From: Chthonomonas sp.
Lineage (GTDB): Bacteria > Armatimonadota > Fimbriimonadia > Fimbriimonadales > Fimbriimonadaceae
DNA length: 64,000 nt
Reading direction: 5' to 3'
Assembly (NCBI GenBank): GCA_016788585.1
Contig: JAEURP010000026.1
Span: 1 to 64,000 of the forward strand
Program-made: the position numbers and the translations under genes
Notes under the pieces: model-generated
Seen by the model: the letters and a program-made list of their open reading frames with translations, nothing else
The model's database searches: none
Told to the model about the DNA's origin: nothing
Shown: positions 13,982 to 23,370 of the stretch, one piece after another
How positions within the stretch are numbered: the stretch's first letter is position 1
How the letters are laid out: each line of letters starts with the position of its first letter

Positions 13982-14013
13982 GCTCCGATTAGGTTCAAAC
14001 TAGGACTGACGGG

Positions 14014-14019
14014 TATAGT
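14014..14019 (+). promoter_or_regulatory. Candidate -10 box of miaB
   Basis: TATAGT preceded by GGG. The first in-frame start-like codon, TTG at 14031, is 11 nt away and the conserved-length ATG is at 14088, so miaB has either a very short or a roughly 60-nt leader. Confidence 0.35.
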
Positions 14020-14087
14020 TCCCAACGGCCTTGGCTTCGTTGATTCGCACTGATTCGCTTATCCGACCAGCTCCCACGACTTTGGAG

Positions 14088-15413
14088 ATGGGAACGTATT
14101 TCGTGCAGACCTGGGGCTGCCAGATGAACGAAGAAGATAGCGAGCAGATCGCGCTCTATCTCGACGGGCTGGGGTTGCACGCGGCAGGGTCATATGAGTC
14201 GGCGCAGGTTGTGATCTTGAACACCTGCAGCGTTCGGAGAAAGCCTGAGGACAAGGCGTTTTCGTTCTTGGGGCAACTCGCTATTCGGAAGCAGAAGAAC
14301 CCAGAAATGATTATCGGGGTGGCTGGGTGCATGGCGCAATTGCGGTCGAGCGAGATTCGGCAACGAGCGCCGCACGTGAACTTTGTCGTTGGGACAGCGC
14401 AGATTTCCTTGGTGCCAGGGCTGGTCGAGGGGGCGCTTCAGGGACAAAGGTTTCAGCGGGAGATGGCGTTGCCGGAGAGGCGCGGTGCTGTTGTCACGGA
14501 TATTCCTTTGCGCGCGGTGAGTCGGTCGCCGAAGCTGAAGGCGTATGTGCCGATTCAGTACGGATGCGATAAGTTCTGCTCGTTTTGCATCGTGCCGACC
14601 ACGCGGGGGCGGGAGCGATCTCGACCGACGGCGGAGATTGTTGAGGAGGTCGCTGAGTTGTGTCGGAACGGGACGAAGGAAGTGACGTTGCTCGGTCAGA
14701 CGGTGAACTCCTACGGGAAGAACCTTGCTGAAGGGCGCGTTTCATTTGGGCAGCTACTTGAGCAATTGGACGAAGTCGAGGGTCTGGAGCGGATTCGCTT
14801 TACCTCGCCCTATCCGCGTGACTTTAAGACTGATTTGATAGAGGTCATTCGCGATCGGCCGAAGGTGATGGAGCACTTGCACATGCCTCTGCAGAGCGGT
14901 TCCGATGAGATTCTGCGGAAGATGAAGCGGCTTTACTCGACCGATGAGTTTCGGCAGATCGTAGCCGAGACCAGGGCGATGATGCCGAATGCTGGAATCA
15001 CGACGGATGTCATTGTGGGCTTCCCTGGTGAGACGGAGGAGCACTTTCAGCAAACCATGAAGTTTATGGCTGAGATGGAGTTTGATGGGGCGTACATGTT
15101 CCACTACTCGACCCGGCCCGGGACGCCGGCGGCGACGATGGAGCAAGTGCCGCACGACGTGAAAATGGATCGACTGCACCGACTCATGTCCCAGCAGGAT
15201 GAAATCACTCTTCGGCAAAATGAGACCCAGATCGGGTTGATTCATGAGGTTTTGGTCGAGGGCGAGTCGCCTCGTCAGGCGGGAATGCTAAAGGGGTATT
15301 CGCGGGAGTTTCGGATGGTGCATTTCCCTGGCGATGCTTCGCTGACTGGGCAATTGGTGAAGGTCCGCGGGGAATCGGCCCATCATTGGGGAATCGGCGG
15401 AACAGCGATCTAG
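14088..15413 (+). CDS. miaB: tRNA-2-methylthio-N6-dimethylallyladenosine synthase MiaB
   Basis: MiaB adds a methylthio group to i6A37 in tRNAs reading UNN codons. From ATG 14088 the protein has 441 residues. The N-terminal cluster ligands begin at C11 in FVQTWGCQMN, and the radical-SAM motif is C160-x3-C164-x2-C167 (GCDKFCSFCIVP), followed by a C-terminal TRAM domain. Starts are uncertain: a TTG at 14031 in the same frame would add 19 residues, but family members begin close to the FVQTWGC strand. It is divergent from the vkor-dsbA operon. Confidence 0.95.
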   Translation: MGTYFVQTWGCQMNEEDSEQIALYLDGLGLHAAGSYESAQVVILNTCSVRRKPEDKAFSFLGQLAIRKQKNPEMIIGVAGCMAQLRSSEIRQRAPHVNFVVGTAQISLVPGLVEGALQGQRFQREMALPERRGAVVTDIPLRAVSRSPKLKAYVPIQYGCDKFCSFCIVPTTRGRERSRPTAEIVEEVAELCRNGTKEVTLLGQTVNSYGKNLAEGRVSFGQLLEQLDEVEGLERIRFTSPYPRDFKTDLIEVIRDRPKVMEHLHMPLQSGSDEILRKMKRLYSTDEFRQIVAETRAMMPNAGITTDVIVGFPGETEEHFQQTMKFMAEMEFDGAYMFHYSTRPGTPAATMEQVPHDVKMDRLHRLMSQQDEITLRQNETQIGLIHEVLVEGESPRQAGMLKGYSREFRMVHFPGDASLTGQLVKVRGESAHHWGIGGTAI

Positions 15414-15422
15414 GCTACGCGG

Positions 15423-15428
15423 TACCCT
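15423..15428 (+). promoter_or_regulatory. Leaderless-type -10 box of ppa
   Basis: TACCCT preceded by GG lies 6 nt before the ATG at 15435. The identical GGTACCCT octamer precedes the esterase gene at 36039. Confidence 0.4.
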
Positions 15429-15434
15429 CTGGGC

Positions 15435-15941
15435 ATGCCTCCCAATATCCGCATTGGCGACAATGCCCCGGAAGTCTTCAACACGATCATCGAAATTCCG
15501 AGAGGCAGTACAAATAAGTACGAATGGGATCCAGAGTCCGGCTACTTCAAGCTTGACCGCGTGCTGTATTCACCGTTGTTTTATCCGTTTGATTACGGCT
15601 TTATTCCGCAGACGCACTACCTAGATGGTGACCCAATGGACGTGCTGGTGATGGTCTATCACCCGACGTTTTCGGGCTGCATCGTCGAGGCGCGGGCGAT
15701 TGGCGTTCTGGAGATGCGCGACGAGAAGGGGCCGGACGAGAAACTGCTTTGCGTGGCGACCAAGGACCCGCACTACGGGACGCGGAAGCATTACGAGGAC
15801 ATCAGCCCCCACACGCTGAAAGAGGTGATGCACTTCTTCCAGGTCTACAAGGACCTTGAAGAGAAGTTTGTTGAGGTCGTTGGCTGGCACGGGCCGGAAT
15901 TGGCGTTGGAACTGATCGAGAAGTATCGGACTGACCGGTGA
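15435..15941 (+). CDS. ppa: Inorganic pyrophosphatase (family I)
   Basis: The 168-residue enzyme hydrolyses pyrophosphate to phosphate and pulls biosynthetic reactions forward. It has EIPRGSTNKYEWD near the N-terminus and the metal-binding DGDPMDVLVM signature, as in soluble hexameric PPases. It follows miaB by 21 nt but has its own -10-like box 6 nt upstream and no ribosome binding site. The stop overlaps the next GTG start (GTGA). Confidence 0.96.
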   Translation: MPPNIRIGDNAPEVFNTIIEIPRGSTNKYEWDPESGYFKLDRVLYSPLFYPFDYGFIPQTHYLDGDPMDVLVMVYHPTFSGCIVEARAIGVLEMRDEKGPDEKLLCVATKDPHYGTRKHYEDISPHTLKEVMHFFQVYKDLEEKFVEVVGWHGPELALELIEKYRTDR

Positions 15942-16255
15942 AACTCTCTGGGCCTGCGATAATGGCCGTTGCTGGGCTGCTCGCTGGAGTACTGGCCGCC
16001 GCTACGATGCAGATCAAAGCAATTTCCATCGCATTGGGAGTCGTTGCGATTGGTCTGCTGGTAGGCGCTAGATTCTGCGCAGCCGGTAGAGATCGTTACT
16101 CTCTCTCAGCCTTGAACCGGCTGGAGGAGCAGATGGCATTTCACGAAGCCGACTCACTCGACACTTCATCGGCTGCCGAAATCGTTTGCCCGAACTGCTT
16201 CGAAGCATATGATGCGGCTCGTCCCGCCTGCCCGCGATGCGGGAAACTGACCTAA
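15938..16255 (+). CDS. Small membrane protein with C-terminal zinc ribbon
   Basis: This 105-residue protein from GTG 15938 has two hydrophobic segments (about 6-28 and 29-46) and ends in a zinc ribbon, CPNCFEAYDAARPACPRCGK. The GTG overlaps the ppa stop codon, so it is probably translationally coupled to ppa. No family name is recognised; similar short zinc-ribbon membrane proteins are widespread. It meets the M20 peptidase gene in a 4-bp tail-to-tail overlap (CTAA). Confidence 0.75.
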   Translation: MKLSGPAIMAVAGLLAGVLAAATMQIKAISIALGVVAIGLLVGARFCAAGRDRYSLSALNRLEEQMAFHEADSLDTSSAAEIVCPNCFEAYDAARPACPRCGKLT

Positions 16256-17637
16256 GCGTGCGCGAGTCGCCAAATGATGTGCGCATAGATTCGGCTCATC
16301 TTGAATAGGTGCTCGATCTTGAGGCGCTCATCGGTTTGGTGGGCTTCGCCGTCTCCTTGCCAACCAGTGCCAATGGCAACGCTGTTCGGGATGGCGCGCG
16401 CATAGGTGCCTCCTCCCATGACGCCAGGCTTCTTGCGCTCGCCGGTTTCCTCTTCGTAAACGTCACACACTGTTTTGACCAGCGGGTGATCGAGTGGGAA
16501 GTAGAGTGGCTTGCTGTCGTTGAACTTGTCAACGGAGTAGGGGCCGAGATCGGCTAGGAAGGCGTTGAGGCGGCTTTCGAGGTCTTCGCCCTTCCATGTG
16601 ACTGGGTAGCGGACATTGAAGGTCATTCGGAGCGAATCGCCATCGATGCCGATGATTCCGAGGTTGTTGGTGAGTTCGCTGATCTCGTCGCGGCCATCAA
16701 TGCCGAGGCCGCTGCCGCCGATGTGGGTGGTTTCGAATAGGTCTTCGTACTCCTTCTTCTGGTTTGCGGGCGAGATTTCCATGAGGAACCGCAGAATCCT
16801 GATGGCGGCATTGTCGCCACCCCATGGCCAGCTGCCGTGAGCGGCCTTGCCGGTTGCGGTGAGTTTAAGGTTCACACCGTCGAACTCGACATGGAGGTTC
16901 TTGTCCCATTGCTTGGCGAGTTTTTCTTCGATCTCGGGTCGGGCTTCGGCTGAGACTGTGGCTGTGCCTACCGCGGAGTCTATGACGATATTAGGGCGTT
17001 GGCCGCCAGTGAGGCCGGTCATGGTCAATCCACCGACGGGCATCTTGGCTAGGACTTCGAACGTGGCGATGCCCTTTTCGGCTTGGATGAGGGGCCAGCC
17101 AGCGTCGGGAGCAATGCCGTAGGTTGGCGCCTCTTCGGTCTGGACATAGCGTTCAATGCACTTAAAGCCCGACTCTTCATTGCATCCGAAGACGGTTCGG
17201 ATACGTGCGCCAACTTCCGGGGCGACCTCTTGAATGGCGCGAGCGGCAAAGAAAGCGGCAATCGTCGGGCCCTTATCGTCCGTGGCGCCGCGAGAATAGA
17301 CATAGCCATTGTCGATGGTCGCGCTGAACGGATCAAACTTCCAGCCTGGGCCGACGGGAACAACGTCTAGGTGGCCCAAGATGGTGACCAAGGTGTCGCC
17401 TTGGCCGAACTCGGCGTAGCCGCAGTATCCCTCAAGGTCGGTGGTCATCATGCCCCACTCGCTCGCCAGATTCAGCATCATGTCGAGCGCTCGGCGGTTT
17501 TCAATGCCAAAAGGAGCGTTGGGCTCAGCATCGGCCTCGATGGACGGGATGCGAAGAAGAGCTTGATACTGTTCGAGGAGTTCTGTCTCGTGGCTTCGTA
17601 GCCAGTCTTGGATCTTCGAGACGGTTGCGTCGGGCAT
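16252..17637 (-). CDS. M20 family metallopeptidase, PepV-like
   Basis: From ATG 17637 the protein has 461 residues. Zinc ligands are visible in LGHLDVVPVG, the GATDDKGP loop and GCNEESGFKC, with the lid/dimerisation domain between. The overall pattern is closest to the PepV dipeptidase group, which releases amino acids from short peptides in the cytosol. A longer frame exists upstream from a GTG at 17688, but TACACT at 17644-17649 lies exactly 6 nt before this ATG, matching the start pattern in this window, and the extra residues look non-conserved. Confidence 0.9.
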   Translation of the reverse strand: MPDATVSKIQDWLRSHETELLEQYQALLRIPSIEADAEPNAPFGIENRRALDMMLNLASEWGMMTTDLEGYCGYAEFGQGDTLVTILGHLDVVPVGPGWKFDPFSATIDNGYVYSRGATDDKGPTIAAFFAARAIQEVAPEVGARIRTVFGCNEESGFKCIERYVQTEEAPTYGIAPDAGWPLIQAEKGIATFEVLAKMPVGGLTMTGLTGGQRPNIVIDSAVGTATVSAEARPEIEEKLAKQWDKNLHVEFDGVNLKLTATGKAAHGSWPWGGDNAAIRILRFLMEISPANQKKEYEDLFETTHIGGSGLGIDGRDEISELTNNLGIIGIDGDSLRMTFNVRYPVTWKGEDLESRLNAFLADLGPYSVDKFNDSKPLYFPLDHPLVKTVCDVYEEETGERKKPGVMGGGTYARAIPNSVAIGTGWQGDGEAHQTDERLKIEHLFKMSRIYAHIIWRLAHA

Positions 17638-17643
17638 TTCTGA

Positions 17644-17649
17644 AGTGTA
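17644..17649 (-). promoter_or_regulatory. Leaderless-type -10 box of the M20 peptidase gene
   Basis: TACACT on the minus strand lies 6 nt before the ATG at 17637. It sits about 12 bp beyond the T-tract of the terminator at 17661-17719. Confidence 0.45.
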
Positions 17650-17660
17650 CTCAGGGGCCA

Positions 17661-17719
17661 CAAACAAAAAAGCGAGGCCCGTAGCCACTAATGGCGGCGG
17701 CGTGACCCGGGCACTCGCT
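17661..17719 (-). terminator. Strong minus-strand terminator with no gene behind it
   Basis: On the minus strand AGCGAGTGCCCG (17719-17708) pairs with CGGGCCTCGCT (17681-17671) with one bulged base. An inner hairpin GCCA/TGGC sits at 17684-17695, and TTTTTTGTTTG follows. This is a good intrinsic terminator. It stands between the M20 promoter and about 300 bp with no convincing coding sequence, so what it terminates is unknown. Confidence 0.65.
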
Positions 17720-18022
17720 GAGACGTAGTTTCCACAGCGACTGCAAGTGAGGACTTCGCAACGTTACGGGGATTGAACAAACTGTGGCCGGGAGACGTAG
17801 GATCAATTTGTGGCATGCCCGGATTAATTACTGGGAACTTAGTCGGATATTTGGAACAGTTACGGCCCCAAGCGCGACTACGAAAGTGGAGGACGTACCC
17901 ATTCGGAACGCCGTTCGACCGTAGGATTTCTGACAAAAATTCTGCGGGCATGTTAAAAGCGGGAGCAGAGGTGGAAAGAAGACACTGGCGGCAACGATCA
18001 CAAAGGGGTTGGAAACAAAAAC
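17720..18022. other. About 300 bp without a convincing gene
   Basis: Short frames exist on both strands (plus 17773-18036, minus 17951-17688) but neither looks like a protein family or has a plausible start signal. A weak plus-strand promoter candidate is CTGACA (17930-17935) with TGTTAA (17951-17956), 15 bp apart, which would give the LuxR-type gene a leader of about 60 nt. The terminator at 17661-17719 suggests a minus-strand RNA, possibly a small RNA. I recognised no 6S, SRP, tmRNA or RNase P signature on either strand. Confidence 0.35.
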
Positions 18023-18295
18023 ATGGCCATGCCTAGTACAGCACGAATAGAAATGGGTCCTCGCGGCGTCCGGCTGACGCCCACCGAGATTAAGGTCCTG
18101 AGCCTAATCGCTCAGGGTCACAGCAGCAAGGAGGCTGCTGAGAAGCTCGTCGTTTCGAAGCGCACAGTGGACTTCCACTTGGCGAACATTTACGATAAGC
18201 TTCAGGTCAACAATCGAGTACAAGCGCTTCGAGCGGCGACGCGCTACGGCTTGATTCCGTTTGACCCGGTCTTCGGTGGCGGAAGCGACGCTTAA
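18023..18295 (+). CDS. Stand-alone LuxR/GerE-type helix-turn-helix regulator
   Basis: This 90-residue protein is almost only a GerE-type DNA-binding domain: LTPTEIKVLSLIAQGHSSKE, then SKRTVDFHLANIYDKLQV (recognition helix) and NNRVQALRAATRYGLI. There is no receiver or ligand domain, so activity may be set by expression level or by a partner. GGGG/GGA stretches precede the ATG. It is followed by a terminator and therefore forms its own transcription unit. A second in-frame ATG two codons on is equally possible. Confidence 0.88.
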   Translation: MAMPSTARIEMGPRGVRLTPTEIKVLSLIAQGHSSKEAAEKLVVSKRTVDFHLANIYDKLQVNNRVQALRAATRYGLIPFDPVFGGGSDA

Positions 18296-18319
18296 GAGTA
18301 TCGCGAATTGAAGTGATTT

Positions 18320-18344
18320 GCCTCACCCTTCGGGTGGGGCTTTT
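18320..18344 (+). terminator. Rho-independent terminator after the LuxR-type gene
   Basis: GCCTCACCC pairs with GGGTGGGGC (one G-U pair) around a TTC loop and is followed by TTTT. It ends 14 bp before the comF start, so the comF -10 box must lie directly behind it. Confidence 0.75.
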
Positions 18345-18347
18345 CGC

Positions 18348-18353
18348 TATATT
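18348..18353 (+). promoter_or_regulatory. Leaderless-type -10 box of comF
   Basis: TATATT lies 5 nt before the GTG at 18359, immediately after the preceding terminator. Confidence 0.4.
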
Positions 18354-18358
18354 AGGCT

Positions 18359-18982
18359 GTGCTTAACGCGCTTTTCCCCGTACGGTGCGGCTTGTGTGGT
18401 CTGATGGCCAGCAGTGGACTCTGCGAGGAGTGCCGAGAGGCGTTTGAGCCGGCGCAGAACGCGGTGGAAAGGCTCGATTCGGGTTCGCTGAGCATCGCCA
18501 TTGGGCTCTACAAGTACGAAGGACGGGTGGCTCAGGCCGTTCAGAGGTTGAAGTACGAAAGAGTCACATCGCTGGCCGACCCGCTGGCCAACCTGATCGA
18601 AATTGGATTTCGCGAATATGGGGGCGACTCTTGGGACATGATTGCGCCGGTGCCTATTCATTGGCGGCGGCTTTGCTGGCGCGGTTTCAACCAGGCCGAG
18701 CTGTTGGCGAGGAATCTACCTCACATGATTCAAGGAAAAGGGTTGCTGAGAATCCGAGCCACGCGGCCTCAGGTGAGGCTCTCGCCCGAAGAGCGACGCA
18801 CCAACTTGCTGGGCGCGTTTCGGTCGGACGCTTCTGTTCGAGGCAAGGCAGTTTTGCTCGTGGATGATGTACTCACGAGCGGAAGCACTGCGCGAGCCTG
18901 CGCCGACGCATTGGTAGCTGCGGGCGCGAGCCGGGTTGGCATATTGGCCCTAGCCCGCGGATTTGATCTTAACGTGGACTAA
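18359..18982 (+). CDS. comF: ComF family protein (phosphoribosyltransferase fold)
   Basis: This 207-residue protein starts at GTG 18359. It has the N-terminal four-cysteine zinc site of ComF (C-x2-C, then C-x2-C in LCEECRE) and a C-terminal PRTase domain with the PRPP loop VDDVLTSGSTARACADAL (about 165-182). In competent bacteria ComF is a cytosolic protein that helps import single-stranded DNA; in others its role is unclear. No other competence pilus genes are here, though a TfoX-like protein is at 54252. Confidence 0.93.
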   Translation: MLNALFPVRCGLCGLMASSGLCEECREAFEPAQNAVERLDSGSLSIAIGLYKYEGRVAQAVQRLKYERVTSLADPLANLIEIGFREYGGDSWDMIAPVPIHWRRLCWRGFNQAELLARNLPHMIQGKGLLRIRATRPQVRLSPEERRTNLLGAFRSDASVRGKAVLLVDDVLTSGSTARACADALVAAGASRVGILALARGFDLNVD

Positions 18983-18987
18983 TGACT

Positions 18988-19128
18988 TTACGGCCGGACC
19001 CGCTTGCCCAAGAAACTGATCTCATGCTCTGTCCCGCACTCGCAGCACTGCCTAACTCTAGAATTTCTCTTCGTATGCCAAAGCAACCAGAACACAGGAA
19101 GTAGCATATCCATGATCGATATGAGCAT
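18988..19128 (-). CDS. Possible small zinc-ribbon protein, or remnant interrupted by TGA
   Basis: From ATG 19128 a 46-residue frame reads MLISIMDMLLPVFWLLWHTK and ends CCECGTEHEISFLGKRVRP. Upstream in the same frame, 15 codons of open sequence read DNCQEKTKHICSEPP, directly preceded by TGA at 19174-19176. The TGA sits exactly where the first Cys of a C-x-x-C zinc ribbon would be. Beyond it the frame stays open back to a TTG at 19221 that overlaps the hpf stop. So this is either a 46-residue protein downstream of hpf, a zinc-ribbon gene broken by a TGC/TGT-to-TGA change, or a TGA-readthrough gene. No selenocysteine insertion hairpin was evident. Confidence 0.35.
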   Translation of the reverse strand: MLISIMDMLLPVFWLLWHTKRNSRVRQCCECGTEHEISFLGKRVRP

Positions 19129-19223
19129 AGGAGGCTCGGAACAAATGTGCTTAGTTTTCTCTTGGCAATTGTCTCAGAAGGCCCTCGGGTAGAAGGTCGA
19201 CCAAGGCTCATGCCAGCTCAACT

Positions 19224-19775
19224 TTAAACTTCCGGCTCGAGCAAGCCGTACTTCCCATCCTTTCGGCGGTAGAGCACCTCAACTCGGTTGGTTATCTCGT
19301 TCTTGAAAACGAAGAACGGATAGCCGAGTAACTCCATCTCGAGTGCGGCTTCATCGATCGTTTGCGGCTTGACCAGGAACTGCTTGCGTTCCTTGATCAC
19401 GACATGCTCGTCGTGATCGTCCTCTTCGTGAGGCTCCTCGAAGCCTTTCGGCACGGCCTGACCGTTGTGGCGGTACTTGTTGACCATGCGCTTCTTGATT
19501 CGACGCAGACGGTTTTCGAGTTTGTCGGCCACCAGGTCGACAGCAGCGCGAAGGTTGGCGTCCTCTTCTTCGCCTCGGATGGTGAGGCCATCGGCGAAGA
19601 TGGTCACTTCGAGTTTGTGGAGTTCGCGCTTGCCTCGGTGGACCTCGCGATGGACGAGTTCCACCCGCGATGCTTTGTTGAAGTACCTATCTAAGCGACC
19701 CAGCTTTTCGGCGGCAAAGTCTTTGTCACGATCGGTCAAATTTCCGACGGCATTACGAACGAGTACTTCCATCAT
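19224..19775 (-). CDS. hpf: Ribosome hibernation promoting factor, long form
   Basis: This 183-residue protein has the N-terminal S30AE fold (about 1-100, EVLVRNAVGNLTDRDKDFA) and the C-terminal domain of long HPF (IDEAALEMELLGYPFFVFKN), joined by an acidic, His-rich linker. Long HPF dimerises 70S ribosomes into inactive 100S particles in stationary phase. It has a strong AAGGAG site about 10 nt before the ATG, which makes it one of the clearly leadered genes. It is the last complete gene of the run transglutaminase, PIN/TRAM, ispDF, hpf. Confidence 0.95.
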   Translation of the reverse strand: MMEVLVRNAVGNLTDRDKDFAAEKLGRLDRYFNKASRVELVHREVHRGKRELHKLEVTIFADGLTIRGEEEDANLRAAVDLVADKLENRLRRIKKRMVNKYRHNGQAVPKGFEEPHEEDDHDEHVVIKERKQFLVKPQTIDEAALEMELLGYPFFVFKNEITNRVEVLYRRKDGKYGLLEPEV

Positions 19776-19790
19776 TCTTTTGGTTCTCCT

Positions 19791-20885
19791 TTAAGGGCTC
19801 CGGCGCAACGTGGCCACGGCCATGGCGGCAATGCCTTCTTTGCGCCCGATCGCTCCCAAACCTTCATTGGTTGTCGCCTTTACGTTCACTCTCGTGGGGT
19901 CTATCCCCAAGGCATTTGCGATCACTTCCCTTATCTCATTGCTACGAGACATGATCTTTGGGGTTTCAGCGAGCAGTGTGGCGTCCACGTTTTCAATGGT
20001 CCAGCCCTGTGCCACTAAGCGCTGACCCGTTTCTTCGACAAATCGAATCGAAGGACAATTCTTCCACTGAGGATCACTTGGCGGATAGTGAACACCGATG
20101 TCTCCAAGTCCACCCGCGCCTAAAAGGGCATCGACTACGGCGTGGAGGAGGGCATCGGCATCGGAGTGACCATCCAGCGCTGGCCCGTCAAACTTCACGC
20201 CTCCCAGCATCATGGGCCTTGAAGGGTCGGCTGAAAATGCGTGTACGTCGTATCCGAACCCGGTTCGAATCTCGACCGCAGATCCCACCAATGCTCTCGC
20301 AATTTCCATGTCTTCTGGCGAAGTGATTTTCATATTAATCCTGTTGCCACTGACATACGCGACATTTATTCCAATCTTTTGTAAGAGTGCCGCGTCGTCA
20401 GTCGCCTCGACTTCACCAGCATGAGCACGATGTAGATCGGATAGGCGGGCACATTGGGGAGTTTGAATGGCAAATACCTGATTACGGTCGACCGTAACAC
20501 CATCTTTTTGTCGCAAAGTGTCCGCCATAGCCACAGCCGCCGTTGCAGCGCCGTGCTCTTGGGCACCCACAAGCACTGCCCGGATGAGATCAGGCGTGAC
20601 CAGCGGTCGAGCCCCGTCGTGAATGAGCACGAACTCGTAGCCTTCTGGTACGGCTTCGAGGCCAGCGCGAACGCTTTCAGAACGAGTTGCCCCTCCGGAA
20701 ACGACGGTCGCTTCAGACGAGGCGATCCCACGACCATTGTCGACCACGATCAACAGGTCTACCACTTCTCGAAATGCGTCAATCGACCACTTCCAAACTG
20801 GTTTCCCGCCAAGCGGTTCGATGAGTTTGTCCCCGCCAAAGCGTGTGCCGCTGCCGCCGCAGAGAATGATCGCGGCGACTTTCAA
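19791..20885 (-). CDS. ispDF: Bifunctional IspD-IspF isoprenoid enzyme
   Basis: One 364-residue chain carries two MEP-pathway enzymes. Residues about 1-210 are IspD, with the nucleotide-binding LCGGSGTRFGG and HDGARPLV, making CDP-methylerythritol. Residues about 208-364 are IspF, with the zinc motif GYDVHAF, HSDADALLHAVVDAL and a C-terminal TNEGLGAIGR, making the cyclodiphosphate. The IspE kinase that acts between them is not in the window. It overlaps the PIN/TRAM gene by 4 bp. Fusions occur in alpha- and epsilonproteobacteria; elsewhere ispD and ispF are usually separate. Confidence 0.95.
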   Translation of the reverse strand: MKVAAIILCGGSGTRFGGDKLIEPLGGKPVWKWSIDAFREVVDLLIVVDNGRGIASSEATVVSGGATRSESVRAGLEAVPEGYEFVLIHDGARPLVTPDLIRAVLVGAQEHGAATAAVAMADTLRQKDGVTVDRNQVFAIQTPQCARLSDLHRAHAGEVEATDDAALLQKIGINVAYVSGNRINMKITSPEDMEIARALVGSAVEIRTGFGYDVHAFSADPSRPMMLGGVKFDGPALDGHSDADALLHAVVDALLGAGGLGDIGVHYPPSDPQWKNCPSIRFVEETGQRLVAQGWTIENVDATLLAETPKIMSRSNEIREVIANALGIDPTRVNVKATTNEGLGAIGRKEGIAAMAVATLRRSP

Positions 20886-21982
20886 CGGGCGCGCCTACGT
20901 TGGGCCGACTCGTCGTCGATTCCATCATCTGGCAATTCGGCGAAGATCATCTTGCCGCGCTCAGTCTGGTGAACTTGGGTTACGACGACCGAAACGTCAT
21001 GACCGAGCGCTCGAGCCGCGTTTTCGACGACTACCATCGTGCCGTCGTCGAGGTAGCCAACCCCTTGGCCAGGGTGTGAGCCTTCGCGGCTGATCGTGAG
21101 TTCCAGCGGTTCGCCAGGCAAAACCATTGGTTTCACGGCGAGGGCAAGGTCGTTGATGTTTAGAACCACAACTTCTTGCAAGCTCGCGACGCGGTTAAGG
21201 TTGTGGTCGTTCGTGACGAGGTCGGCACCGAGGGCCCGAGCGAGGCGCACCAGCCGACCGTCGACACCATCGCTCCCTTCGCTCGCGAGCCTATCGTGCG
21301 TCCCAATCTCAAGCGTGACTTTGGCTTGCAATTGGCGAAGCACTTCCAGACCGCGCCGGCCGCGTTGGCGTTTCAGGCCATCGCTGTTGTCAGCAATGTA
21401 TTGGAGCTCATTGAGGACAAACTTCGGGACATAAAGCTGACCGTCTAGAAAACCGGTTAAGATGATGTCGTAGATTCGGCCATCGATGATGACGTTGGTG
21501 TCGAGAATCTTGTATTCAGAGCGTCGCCCCTTCCCTCGGTTTTTCGACCAAGGCAGAACATCCTCAACCTGTCGTATCACGTACAGGGCTACCGAGGACA
21601 CGAGGAACATCATTGCAACCGAAACCAAAGTCGCCGTGAAAGCCCCGAGCGTGGTGAAAAGCACCATGAAAGGAACGGTCAGGATGACGCCGAACAAGAT
21701 GCTGAGGAAGATATTGACCTTGTCGCCTGGGTGAGCCCGTTCCCACGCGCCAAACGTACGCTCAAAGACCTGGAACAGGGCGTTTCCGCCCGCCAGACCG
21801 AGGACCGCACCGAGAACACAGAGCGCCGCCAGTGGCAATGGGTTGTTAGCGTATGAAGTCCCCTCGGGAAATCTCTGGTAGAAGAAAGTTAGAAGTGTCG
21901 CCCCATGCTGATAGGTAATGAAGGCGAGCCCCAGGGCGCCGGCCGCAAGGAACAAGTATCGAACAGAGTTGAGTCGCATCAT
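20882..21982 (-). CDS. YacL-like membrane protein with PIN and TRAM domains
   Basis: The 366-residue protein has several N-terminal membrane helices (about 7-26, 45-65, 88-112 and 115-135). A PIN nuclease domain follows (LDTNVIIDGRIYDI with acidic residues D and D, later LVTNDHNLNR), and then a C-terminal TRAM domain (HPGQGVGYLDDGTMVVVENA). In Firmicutes the orthologue YacL sits directly before ispD and ispF, and the same order holds here. It may be a membrane-bound RNase; the substrate is unknown. It overlaps both neighbours by 4 bp. Confidence 0.9.
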   Translation of the reverse strand: MMRLNSVRYLFLAAGALGLAFITYQHGATLLTFFYQRFPEGTSYANNPLPLAALCVLGAVLGLAGGNALFQVFERTFGAWERAHPGDKVNIFLSILFGVILTVPFMVLFTTLGAFTATLVSVAMMFLVSSVALYVIRQVEDVLPWSKNRGKGRRSEYKILDTNVIIDGRIYDIILTGFLDGQLYVPKFVLNELQYIADNSDGLKRQRGRRGLEVLRQLQAKVTLEIGTHDRLASEGSDGVDGRLVRLARALGADLVTNDHNLNRVASLQEVVVLNINDLALAVKPMVLPGEPLELTISREGSHPGQGVGYLDDGTMVVVENAARALGHDVSVVVTQVHQTERGKMIFAELPDDGIDDESAQRRRAR

Positions 21983-23370
21983 GAGCGGTACTTCGTTGAA
22001 ATTGTCTTAAATGAGCTTCCTTGCAGAACCGTGAAGGTAAATGCTTCCTCCACATTGCCGTGCGCTAACTTGAATCTTGTCGCATTTGTGGGGTGGCTTG
22101 CCCGAGTTGGATCGAACAAAACCCATTGATCCCCGCTCCAGACCTCGTTCCAAGCGTGATAGTACATCTGGCCATTCTCATAAATCAGGCCACTGGCGAC
22201 CCGACTGGGAATACCAGCATTTCGCATCAGCGTCGCACCGAGAATCGCATAGTCTCGGCAGACGCCTTCTTTGCTGGCCAACACTTCGGTAGCATCTCGG
22301 AGTACGCCGATTCCCGCATTTGGCCTCATTGAACGCTCGATCCACAGGCTAATCTTCTCGCTAGCTTTCAGGACCCGGCGTTCCCCGCCAAGAATTTGCT
22401 TAGTCAAGTTCTGAAATTGCGAGGTTCCGACTGGGATGTGCAGGCTTGAGACAATCCACTTTTTGGCATACCGGTTTGCTTCTGAGATTGGCCGATCTTT
22501 CACCGCCATTCGATCCACCGGATGAATAGTAACCATCCAACGATCGCCTAGCCGGGTGACGGTCTGGTACGAGTCGCTTGGGCATCGAGACAGATCCGCT
22601 CCGGTGACCTCGAACCGCGCCTCAAGGAGATCGAGCGAACGGTCAATCGGCGGATTGACTTTGATCGCCGCGGACTCACCCAAGTCAGTTCTTGGACCAT
22701 CTAGGGAGATCGCGACCTCCTTAGAAACGGGCAGCATCACCATGCCAAGGGCTGCTTCAATTTTGATCACATCGCCTTTCGATGAGAAGTAGATCTTGCT
22801 GGCCGCCCGAGGATCGGTCACGGTGACGAGAGTCGCGTCAACAATGCGGCCGCCGACCTCGACCTTTGCCGAACCGTTGACTTTAACTTCATTCTCAATC
22901 AGCGTTACGGTTGTCGGGTCGAGGACGTGGACCTTGAAGGACTTTTGTGCGCCGGCTCCGCTAAGCACCAGGTTGGAAGTAGCATCGTCCACCACGCGCG
23001 CTCCAGGGGGGATGGGGATTGTCCTCTCGGATTTGACCCCGCCATTGTCGATTGTTGCCCTAATCTCCGTTTGCGAAAACTTCGCCAGTACGACCTGAGT
23101 ACGGCCACCGCTTTCGGTTGAGTAACGCATCTCAATGGGACGACCATCCGAACCGGTGCGTGTCCGGCTGACAATGCGCATTTCTAGGTCTTGGCCCATC
23201 AAGGCTGACCGGAACACCGTCTCGCTCTCTGACCATCCTGCGTCCAATTCGCGTGTCACGGAATAGCCGACTTTGCCGCCGTTCAAATAAATGGCAAAGT
23301 AGGTCTCGGTCGCCCATGCGGATTTGCCAAACATGACCATCGCGGCCAGCATTCCGAATCGATTTATCAT
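21979..23370 (-). CDS. Secreted transglutaminase-like protease-fold protein
   Basis: From ATG 23370 the protein has 463 residues with a signal peptide (MINRFGMLAAMVMFGKSAWA). The C-terminal transglutaminase-like domain has a full catalytic triad: C371 in KEGVCRDYAILG, H405 in YYHAWNEVW and D420 in LFDPTRAS. The first 250 residues are beta-rich and unassigned. Such proteins are often periplasmic cysteine peptidases. A TTG at 23406 in the same frame would add 12 residues; TATAGA/TAGACT near 23421-23428 is a plausible -10 box for the operon. Confidence 0.85.
   Translation of the reverse strand: MINRFGMLAAMVMFGKSAWATETYFAIYLNGGKVGYSVTRELDAGWSESETVFRSALMGQDLEMRIVSRTRTGSDGRPIEMRYSTESGGRTQVVLAKFSQTEIRATIDNGGVKSERTIPIPPGARVVDDATSNLVLSGAGAQKSFKVHVLDPTTVTLIENEVKVNGSAKVEVGGRIVDATLVTVTDPRAASKIYFSSKGDVIKIEAALGMVMLPVSKEVAISLDGPRTDLGESAAIKVNPPIDRSLDLLEARFEVTGADLSRCPSDSYQTVTRLGDRWMVTIHPVDRMAVKDRPISEANRYAKKWIVSSLHIPVGTSQFQNLTKQILGGERRVLKASEKISLWIERSMRPNAGIGVLRDATEVLASKEGVCRDYAILGATLMRNAGIPSRVASGLIYENGQMYYHAWNEVWSGDQWVLFDPTRASHPTNATRFKLAHGNVEEAFTFTVLQGSSFKTISTKYRS

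Follow-up and report, generated by a model that had tools for sequence, protein, structure and literature searches.

A bulged hairpin on the minus strand of a 64,000-nucleotide stretch of Chthonomonas sp. DNA (hereafter the window) is best explained, with a probability of about 0.6, as the intrinsic terminator of a stand-alone small RNA (sRNA) of ~90 nt, whose terminator loop would pair with the leader of a LuxR-type regulator gene and most likely lower its translation. Transcription of the sRNA, its start site and its pairing in the cell are what we infer from the sequences of the window and its relatives. An initial annotation had proposed an unannotated minus-strand sRNA at this place; that proposal is supported by comparison with related genomes and remains the best explanation, while the length of about 300 bp given there is replaced by an inferred RNA of ~90 nt (17664-17754).

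The hairpin and its surroundings

The nearest named relatives of the window genome belong to the Fimbriimonadaceae, in the phylum Armatimonadota. The hairpin lies in the gap between an M20 peptidase gene (16252-17637, minus strand; Pfam PF01546, 3.4e-27), which is the usual neighbour of the RNA, and a plus-strand gene (18023-18295; Pfam PF00196, 1.1e-18) for a 90-aa LuxR-type regulator with a GerE domain, the proposed target gene. Two 87-aa ORFs in the gap gave no Pfam match, in agreement with the initial annotation, which had recognised no protein behind the terminator. Outside the gap, a single ORF at 19791-20885 (minus strand) resembles an IspD-IspF fusion by eye.

The bulged minus-strand stem with a T tail that had been described at 17661-17719 was confirmed. 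Read on the minus strand from 17719 to 17671, stem A (6 bp, AGCGAG with CTCGCT) is followed by a 1-nt bulge, stem B (5 bp, GCCCG with CGGGC) and an apical GCCGCC loop; a run of six T follows at 17671-17666, and the T-rich tail reaches 17661. The hairpin is real: the 62-nt fold has a free energy of -28.2 kcal/mol as compared to a shuffle mean of -18.8 (z -3.3), none of 200 shuffles was equally stable, and the U-run comes directly after the stable stem, as in an intrinsic terminator. The fold of the whole gap gave no signal (z 0.27). For the inferred 91-nt RNA in full, stability is modest (z -1.5), with 13 of 200 shuffles folding at least as well. A consensus terminator scanner did not list the window hairpin because it disallows bulges and limits loops to 3-8; by the same scanner, terminator-like sites in 14000-22000 are not in excess (6 found vs 8.2 in shuffles).

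In 464 kb of the genome (the window and 20 other stretches), GCCGCC occurs in 11 of 115 intergenic terminator-like hairpins, the hairpin at 17671-17719 included. That it represents a generic terminator type of the Chthonomonas sp. genome was rejected, the other 10 GCCGCC hairpins differing in architecture by eye. The search against RNA covariance models suggested earlier was run with Rfam 15, and no family matches the hairpin: the window contains two tRNAs elsewhere, the best E-value at the hairpin locus is 0.2, the best among 13 loci of relatives is 0.14, and five further loci gave nothing at E ≤ 1; all hairpin scores are far below the gathering threshold.

Conservation and covariation in Fimbriimonadaceae

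A common architecture of stem A, a 1-2-nt 5' bulge, stem B and a CCGCC loop was found upstream of the M20 gene in many relatives, and a GGAA element ~10 nt before the hairpin (17730-17733, minus strand, in the window) recurs in the alignments of the family. When an automatic rule was applied to 84 distinct M20 upstream regions, a hairpin with GCCGCC was found in 28 and one with a variant loop in 10; by eye, the calls at loci L201, L235 and L237 are spurious, and the cut-offs missed L031, L032, L043, L061, L216, L218 and L219. Upstream of M20, L031 and L032 carry tandem hairpins: the conserved one is followed, closer to the start, by another that looks like a terminator.

Covariation in related genomes, another check proposed at the outset, is strong. 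Over all 32 rows of an alignment that leans towards the structure, as it was fitted to a model (R1) built from 15 relatives, 79.2% of the cells are paired vs 61.9% when shuffled, 82 cells changed on both sides vs 33, and the covariation score is 0.492 vs 0.227, or at most 0.138 when slid. In the 27 rows left after five chance-match rows had been dropped (two in L113 and one each in L193, L104 and L211), 256 Watson-Crick cells compare with a shuffle mean of 176 and a maximum of 200 in 2000 shuffles. In these rows G-U pairs exceed A-C pairs by 42 to 14, which places the RNA on the minus strand. RNAalifold predicted zero pairs on the MAFFT alignment A1, because the stems are misaligned there. The U-run is unconserved, being weak or absent in, e.g., L105, L036, L107, L040, L039, L120 and L126 as well as in genomes G001 and G003. 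Since the stems stay paired despite changes on both sides, conservation in relatives is stronger evidence for the hairpin than the window sequence.

Model R1 gives the window locus a score of 18.4 bits, with E 0.36 in a search of 567 kb, and did not report it at E ≤ 1 in a search of the genome. A second model, R2, from which the window's own sequence was left out while that of its sister L002 was included, has its best match in the 2.38-Mb genome at this locus, with 25.7 bits and E 0.05 (the runner-up scores 18.9 bits); both models match at 17670-17734. At E ≤ 0.1, R2 has matches in 25 of 85 family genomes, a count from which strict filters lose weak ones, and 24 of these 25 have a single match, the exception being G001 with two contigs of the same region. 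Across the order, 22 of the 113 genomes have a match at E ≤ 0.01, and all 22 are Fimbriimonadaceae. R1 gives weaker second matches in some genomes, e.g., G011 at E 0.012. In G002, a 99% complete genome of the same genus, the leader motif described below is present and the hairpin was not found. G063 showed neither a hairpin beside M20 nor this leader motif.

A probable gene independent of its neighbours

The M20 gene is probably leaderless, judging from its upstream sequence. A candidate -10 element (TACACT, 17644-17649, minus strand) lies 6 nt before its ATG, and TANNNT at 5 to 9 nt before a laxly defined start occurs in 64 of 68 distinct M20 upstream regions (mean 8.4 and maximum 18 in 200 shuffles); when the start was defined strictly, leaderless spacing was seen in 62 of 68 vs 3.3 in shuffles. 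As this leaderless-type promoter is downstream of the hairpin, the hairpin would lie upstream of the predicted M20 transcript. Leaderless transcription seems common in the window genome, where the same 464 kb show a peak of TANNNT at 6 nt upstream of candidate ATGs (32 cases, as against 13 at 7 nt, 19 at 9 nt and mostly fewer than 12 at other distances); a literature search found no Fimbriimonas paper on leaderless transcription.

A cis-acting leader element of M20, i.e., a riboswitch or attenuator, is very improbable and was set aside, for although the hairpin shares the strand of M20 and in most cases precedes its start by 14-63 nt, it falls outside the predicted 5' UTR, with the leaderless-spaced -10 lying between hairpin and start in 64 of 68 cases, it persists without M20 in G044 and G083, and it has no Rfam riboswitch match.

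In G044, M20 is on another contig, and the hairpin (27.6 bits with R1, G044 being outside the R1 training set) adjoins galK and a DNA polymerase III alpha gene (3' end). In G083 (locus L037), an unbroken hairpin (30.4 bits with R2, G083 being outside the R2 training set) and TTAATTTTT have a galK-like ORF on one side and three convergent ORFs on the other (products guessed by eye), and there is no M20 gene within the 3.5 kb of sequence covered. The hairpin, kept without an adjoining M20 in both, therefore looks like a gene in its own right. The gap is without galK in the window and in G003, and the hairpin is present in both; LuxR is on another contig in G023, G073 and G075. This independence of neighbours is what is expected of the gene of a trans-acting sRNA.

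Alternatively, the hairpin could serve purely as an insulator: with no regulatory RNA role, it would terminate divergent or stray transcripts ahead of the leaderless M20 promoter. This explanation is consistent with the window hairpin, which carries a U-run and ends just upstream of the M20 -10, and with its genomic context, since, of 30 hairpin loci, 27 have a recognisable galK or LuxR upstream, each time divergent; of the other three, the sequence of L102 stops too soon, and in L118 and L126 the place of galK or LuxR is taken by unnamed co-oriented ORFs 602 and 376 nt upstream of the hairpin. However, terminator function needs no particular loop sequence, and yet the loop is conserved and tracks the LuxR leader across genomes, while several members have not kept the U-run and the hairpin is retained without M20 in G044 and G083. 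We consider the insulator unlikely. That the hairpin is the terminator of a lost co-oriented gene was rejected, as galK, the gap gene in many relatives, is divergent.

The stand-alone sRNA would occupy 17664-17754 (~91 nt, minus strand), on the grounds of the conservation and covariation of the hairpin, with the 3' end taken from the T-run and the 5' end guessed from a candidate -10 element, TAACGT, at 17761-17766 (minus strand; TATCCT in G001 and G003), which belongs to an upstream block conserved in these two genomes. In the two contigs of the sister G001, the hairpin is 75% and 74% identical to that of the window, the short block at 17755-17772 is 83% and 89% identical, and the LuxR leader is 86% identical; identity amounts to 59-63% in the middle (17773-17949) and 50-53% in the inferred 5' part of the RNA. 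An RNA of ~300 bp is unsupported because the middle is so little conserved and the conserved blocks lie elsewhere. Read as the sRNA promoter, the short block has no clean TANNNT counterpart in many other genera.

Complementarity of the loop to the LuxR leader

A motif consisting of GGAA, 10 or 11 nt (once 12) and GGCGG was found in 48 of 62 distinct LuxR-type upstream regions, 27-43 nt before the start, and is followed by a G-rich, ribosome-site-like stretch. Its GGCGG is complementary to the CCGCC of the hairpin loop. In the window, the loop segment GCCGCCA (17692-17698, minus strand), which would be the pairing seed, faces TGGCGGC at 17986-17992 (plus strand), the proposed target, 36 nt from the start codon and preceded by GGAA at 17973-17976; this match is only 7 nt long.

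Scored without gaps, hairpins match their own leaders better (20.8) than those of other genera (18.5) in 41 leader-hairpin pairs from 40 genomes and 17 genera. Permutation of genus representatives gave a median p of 0.003 and a maximum of 0.027, and p was 0.008 within genus g20. Ungapped scoring replaced RNAduplex energies, which allow long bulges and gave p 0.02-0.23 for genus representatives and 0.004 within g20, and it was chosen after the RNAduplex result was known. When the whole 180 nt upstream of M20 were scored, without picking hairpins, the own leader again scored higher (19.6 vs 18.3; 58 entries, 26 genera), with a median p of 0.0017 (range 0.0005-0.012) and p 0.97 on the opposite strand. 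These entries are the genomes with both an M20 upstream and a LuxR leader sequence, rather than all 85; one of an initial 59 was dropped as it had no leader core, and 18 of the 59 were added from genomes without a pair in the 41-pair set. Relatedness is controlled at the genus level only in all these p values, which are non-independent as the genera are themselves related.

Both cores are present in 38 of the 41 pairs. In these, with the register chosen to favour matches, the base after GGCGG and the base before CCGCC are C:G in 26, T:A in 8 and T:G in 4 cases and never mismatched. On the other flank (the base before GGCGG and the base after CCGCC), 20 of 38 are pairable and A:C is the commonest combination (15). 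With the opposite strand as control, with relatedness controlled at the genus level and with this weaker second flank, the co-varying complementarity is of the kind expected between a trans-acting sRNA and its target.

The initial annotation had suggested that the RNA acts in cis on the LuxR-type gene, its upstream part overlapping the leader. The link to this regulator survives; the overlap does not, and the connection is instead the complementarity of loop and leader, which is also seen across contigs. M20 is on one contig and LuxR on another in G023, G073, G075, G066, G068 and G080, and the two are ~120 kb apart in G067. The longest loop matches in unlinked cases are 10 nt in G023 and 12 nt in G073. 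G078 has a 10-nt match, although the model predicts most of its loop to be paired, with the CCGCC 0.2 open as compared to 0.55 in the window hairpin. Nor is the leader motif predicted to be unusually open (0.44 unpaired, the same as other G/C bases; 35 leaders). A diverged loop in G007/G052 has a 12-nt leader match that includes three G-U pairs; the loops of G067, G068 and G080 are diverged too, with weaker, interrupted matches.

More unlikely still than the insulator is a conserved sRNA with another partner, be it mRNAs or a protein, for which the LuxR match would be a by-product of GC-rich sequence. GGCGGC is indeed common in the window genome, a weak point of the LuxR pairing as well: 19 of 414 sampled leaders outscore the LuxR leader and 27 score at least as high, and TGGAAN{9,12}GGCGGC has 17 occurrences vs 13 for the reversed control. 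The GGAA present at similar spacing in both RNAs could be a protein site. A by-product of base composition would, however, hardly account for genome-specific matches of up to 12 nt between unlinked loci, with none on the opposite strand, or for the joint occurrence of leader motif and hairpin. Among 68 entries, 43 have both, 11 the leader motif only (no hairpin beside M20, G002 among them), one the hairpin only and 13 neither (Fisher 9e-7, with relatedness uncorrected and hairpin absence assigned by hand).

Proposed mechanism and known systems

For the stand-alone sRNA that pairs with the LuxR leader, we propose that a -10 such as TAACGT would direct transcription from about 17754 to the T-run after the bulged hairpin. 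The terminator loop, with its CCGCC core, would then pair with GGCGG in the 5' leader of the LuxR-type mRNA, upstream of the ribosome site, and the paired loop would cover the ribosome binding region at its upstream edge, which may reduce translation initiation. Repression seems somewhat more probable than activation or stabilisation, a direction taken from the analogy with the C-rich loops of sX13 discussed below.

C-rich hairpin loops are also found in the 6C RNA of Actinobacteria, which has two hairpins with runs of six C; the hairpin described here shares such a loop and has no Rfam match. LhrC of Listeria reportedly pairs with its targets through loops that include the terminator loop. 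LhrC is multicopy in Listeria (PMC4132741), whereas the Fimbriimonadaceae RNA has one R2 match per genome in 24 of 25. Another analogy is sX13 of Xanthomonas, a structured sRNA whose C-rich apical loops act on mRNAs that carry G-rich motifs close to the translation start, with repression shown (PMC3771888); the Fimbriimonadaceae RNA would likewise set a C-rich loop against a G-rich mRNA motif. In contrast to sX13, which has three loops, with CCCC or CCCCC, and a large number of targets (PMC3771888), the Fimbriimonadaceae RNA has a single CCGCC loop, within the terminator hairpin, and a single conserved candidate target. Its core is CCGCC rather than CCCC or longer, and it may work like sX13 without being classed as a member; the sequence relation of the two was assessed through Rfam searches alone.

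A search of open-licence papers, with subscription journals mostly outside its scope, found nothing relevant on small or noncoding RNAs or riboswitches in Armatimonadota. If the proposed reading is true, this would be a first sRNA with a predicted, co-varying target in the phylum, and it would offer one RNA-mRNA pair open to direct test, for which compensatory changes that arose naturally are already visible in genomes. A bolder extension, which we consider rather unlikely, is a dedicated circuit across much of the Fimbriimonadaceae, in which the leader of a GerE-type regulator keeps a fixed pairing site with which the sRNA terminator loop has co-evolved.

Two further sequence elements were noted. 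The LuxR leader (17973-17991, plus strand) and the sRNA (17733-17714, minus strand) have in common a GGAA followed 10-11 nt on by GG, with similar neighbours, an element that is perhaps a common protein site; its use as a shared GGAA-N10-GG promoter is thought unlikely on argument only, as it would place the start inside the conserved hairpin. A palindrome resembling CCTGGTANNNNTACCAGG lies ~36 nt upstream of the sRNA's GGAA in L109, L126, L031, L110 and others; in genomes with galK it is close to the start of that gene, and it could be an operator or a two-way -10. CCTGGTANNNNTACCAGG fits the LuxR box, NNCT-N12-AGNN; if the palindrome upstream of the RNA is such a box, the regulator would control its own antagonist in a feedback loop.
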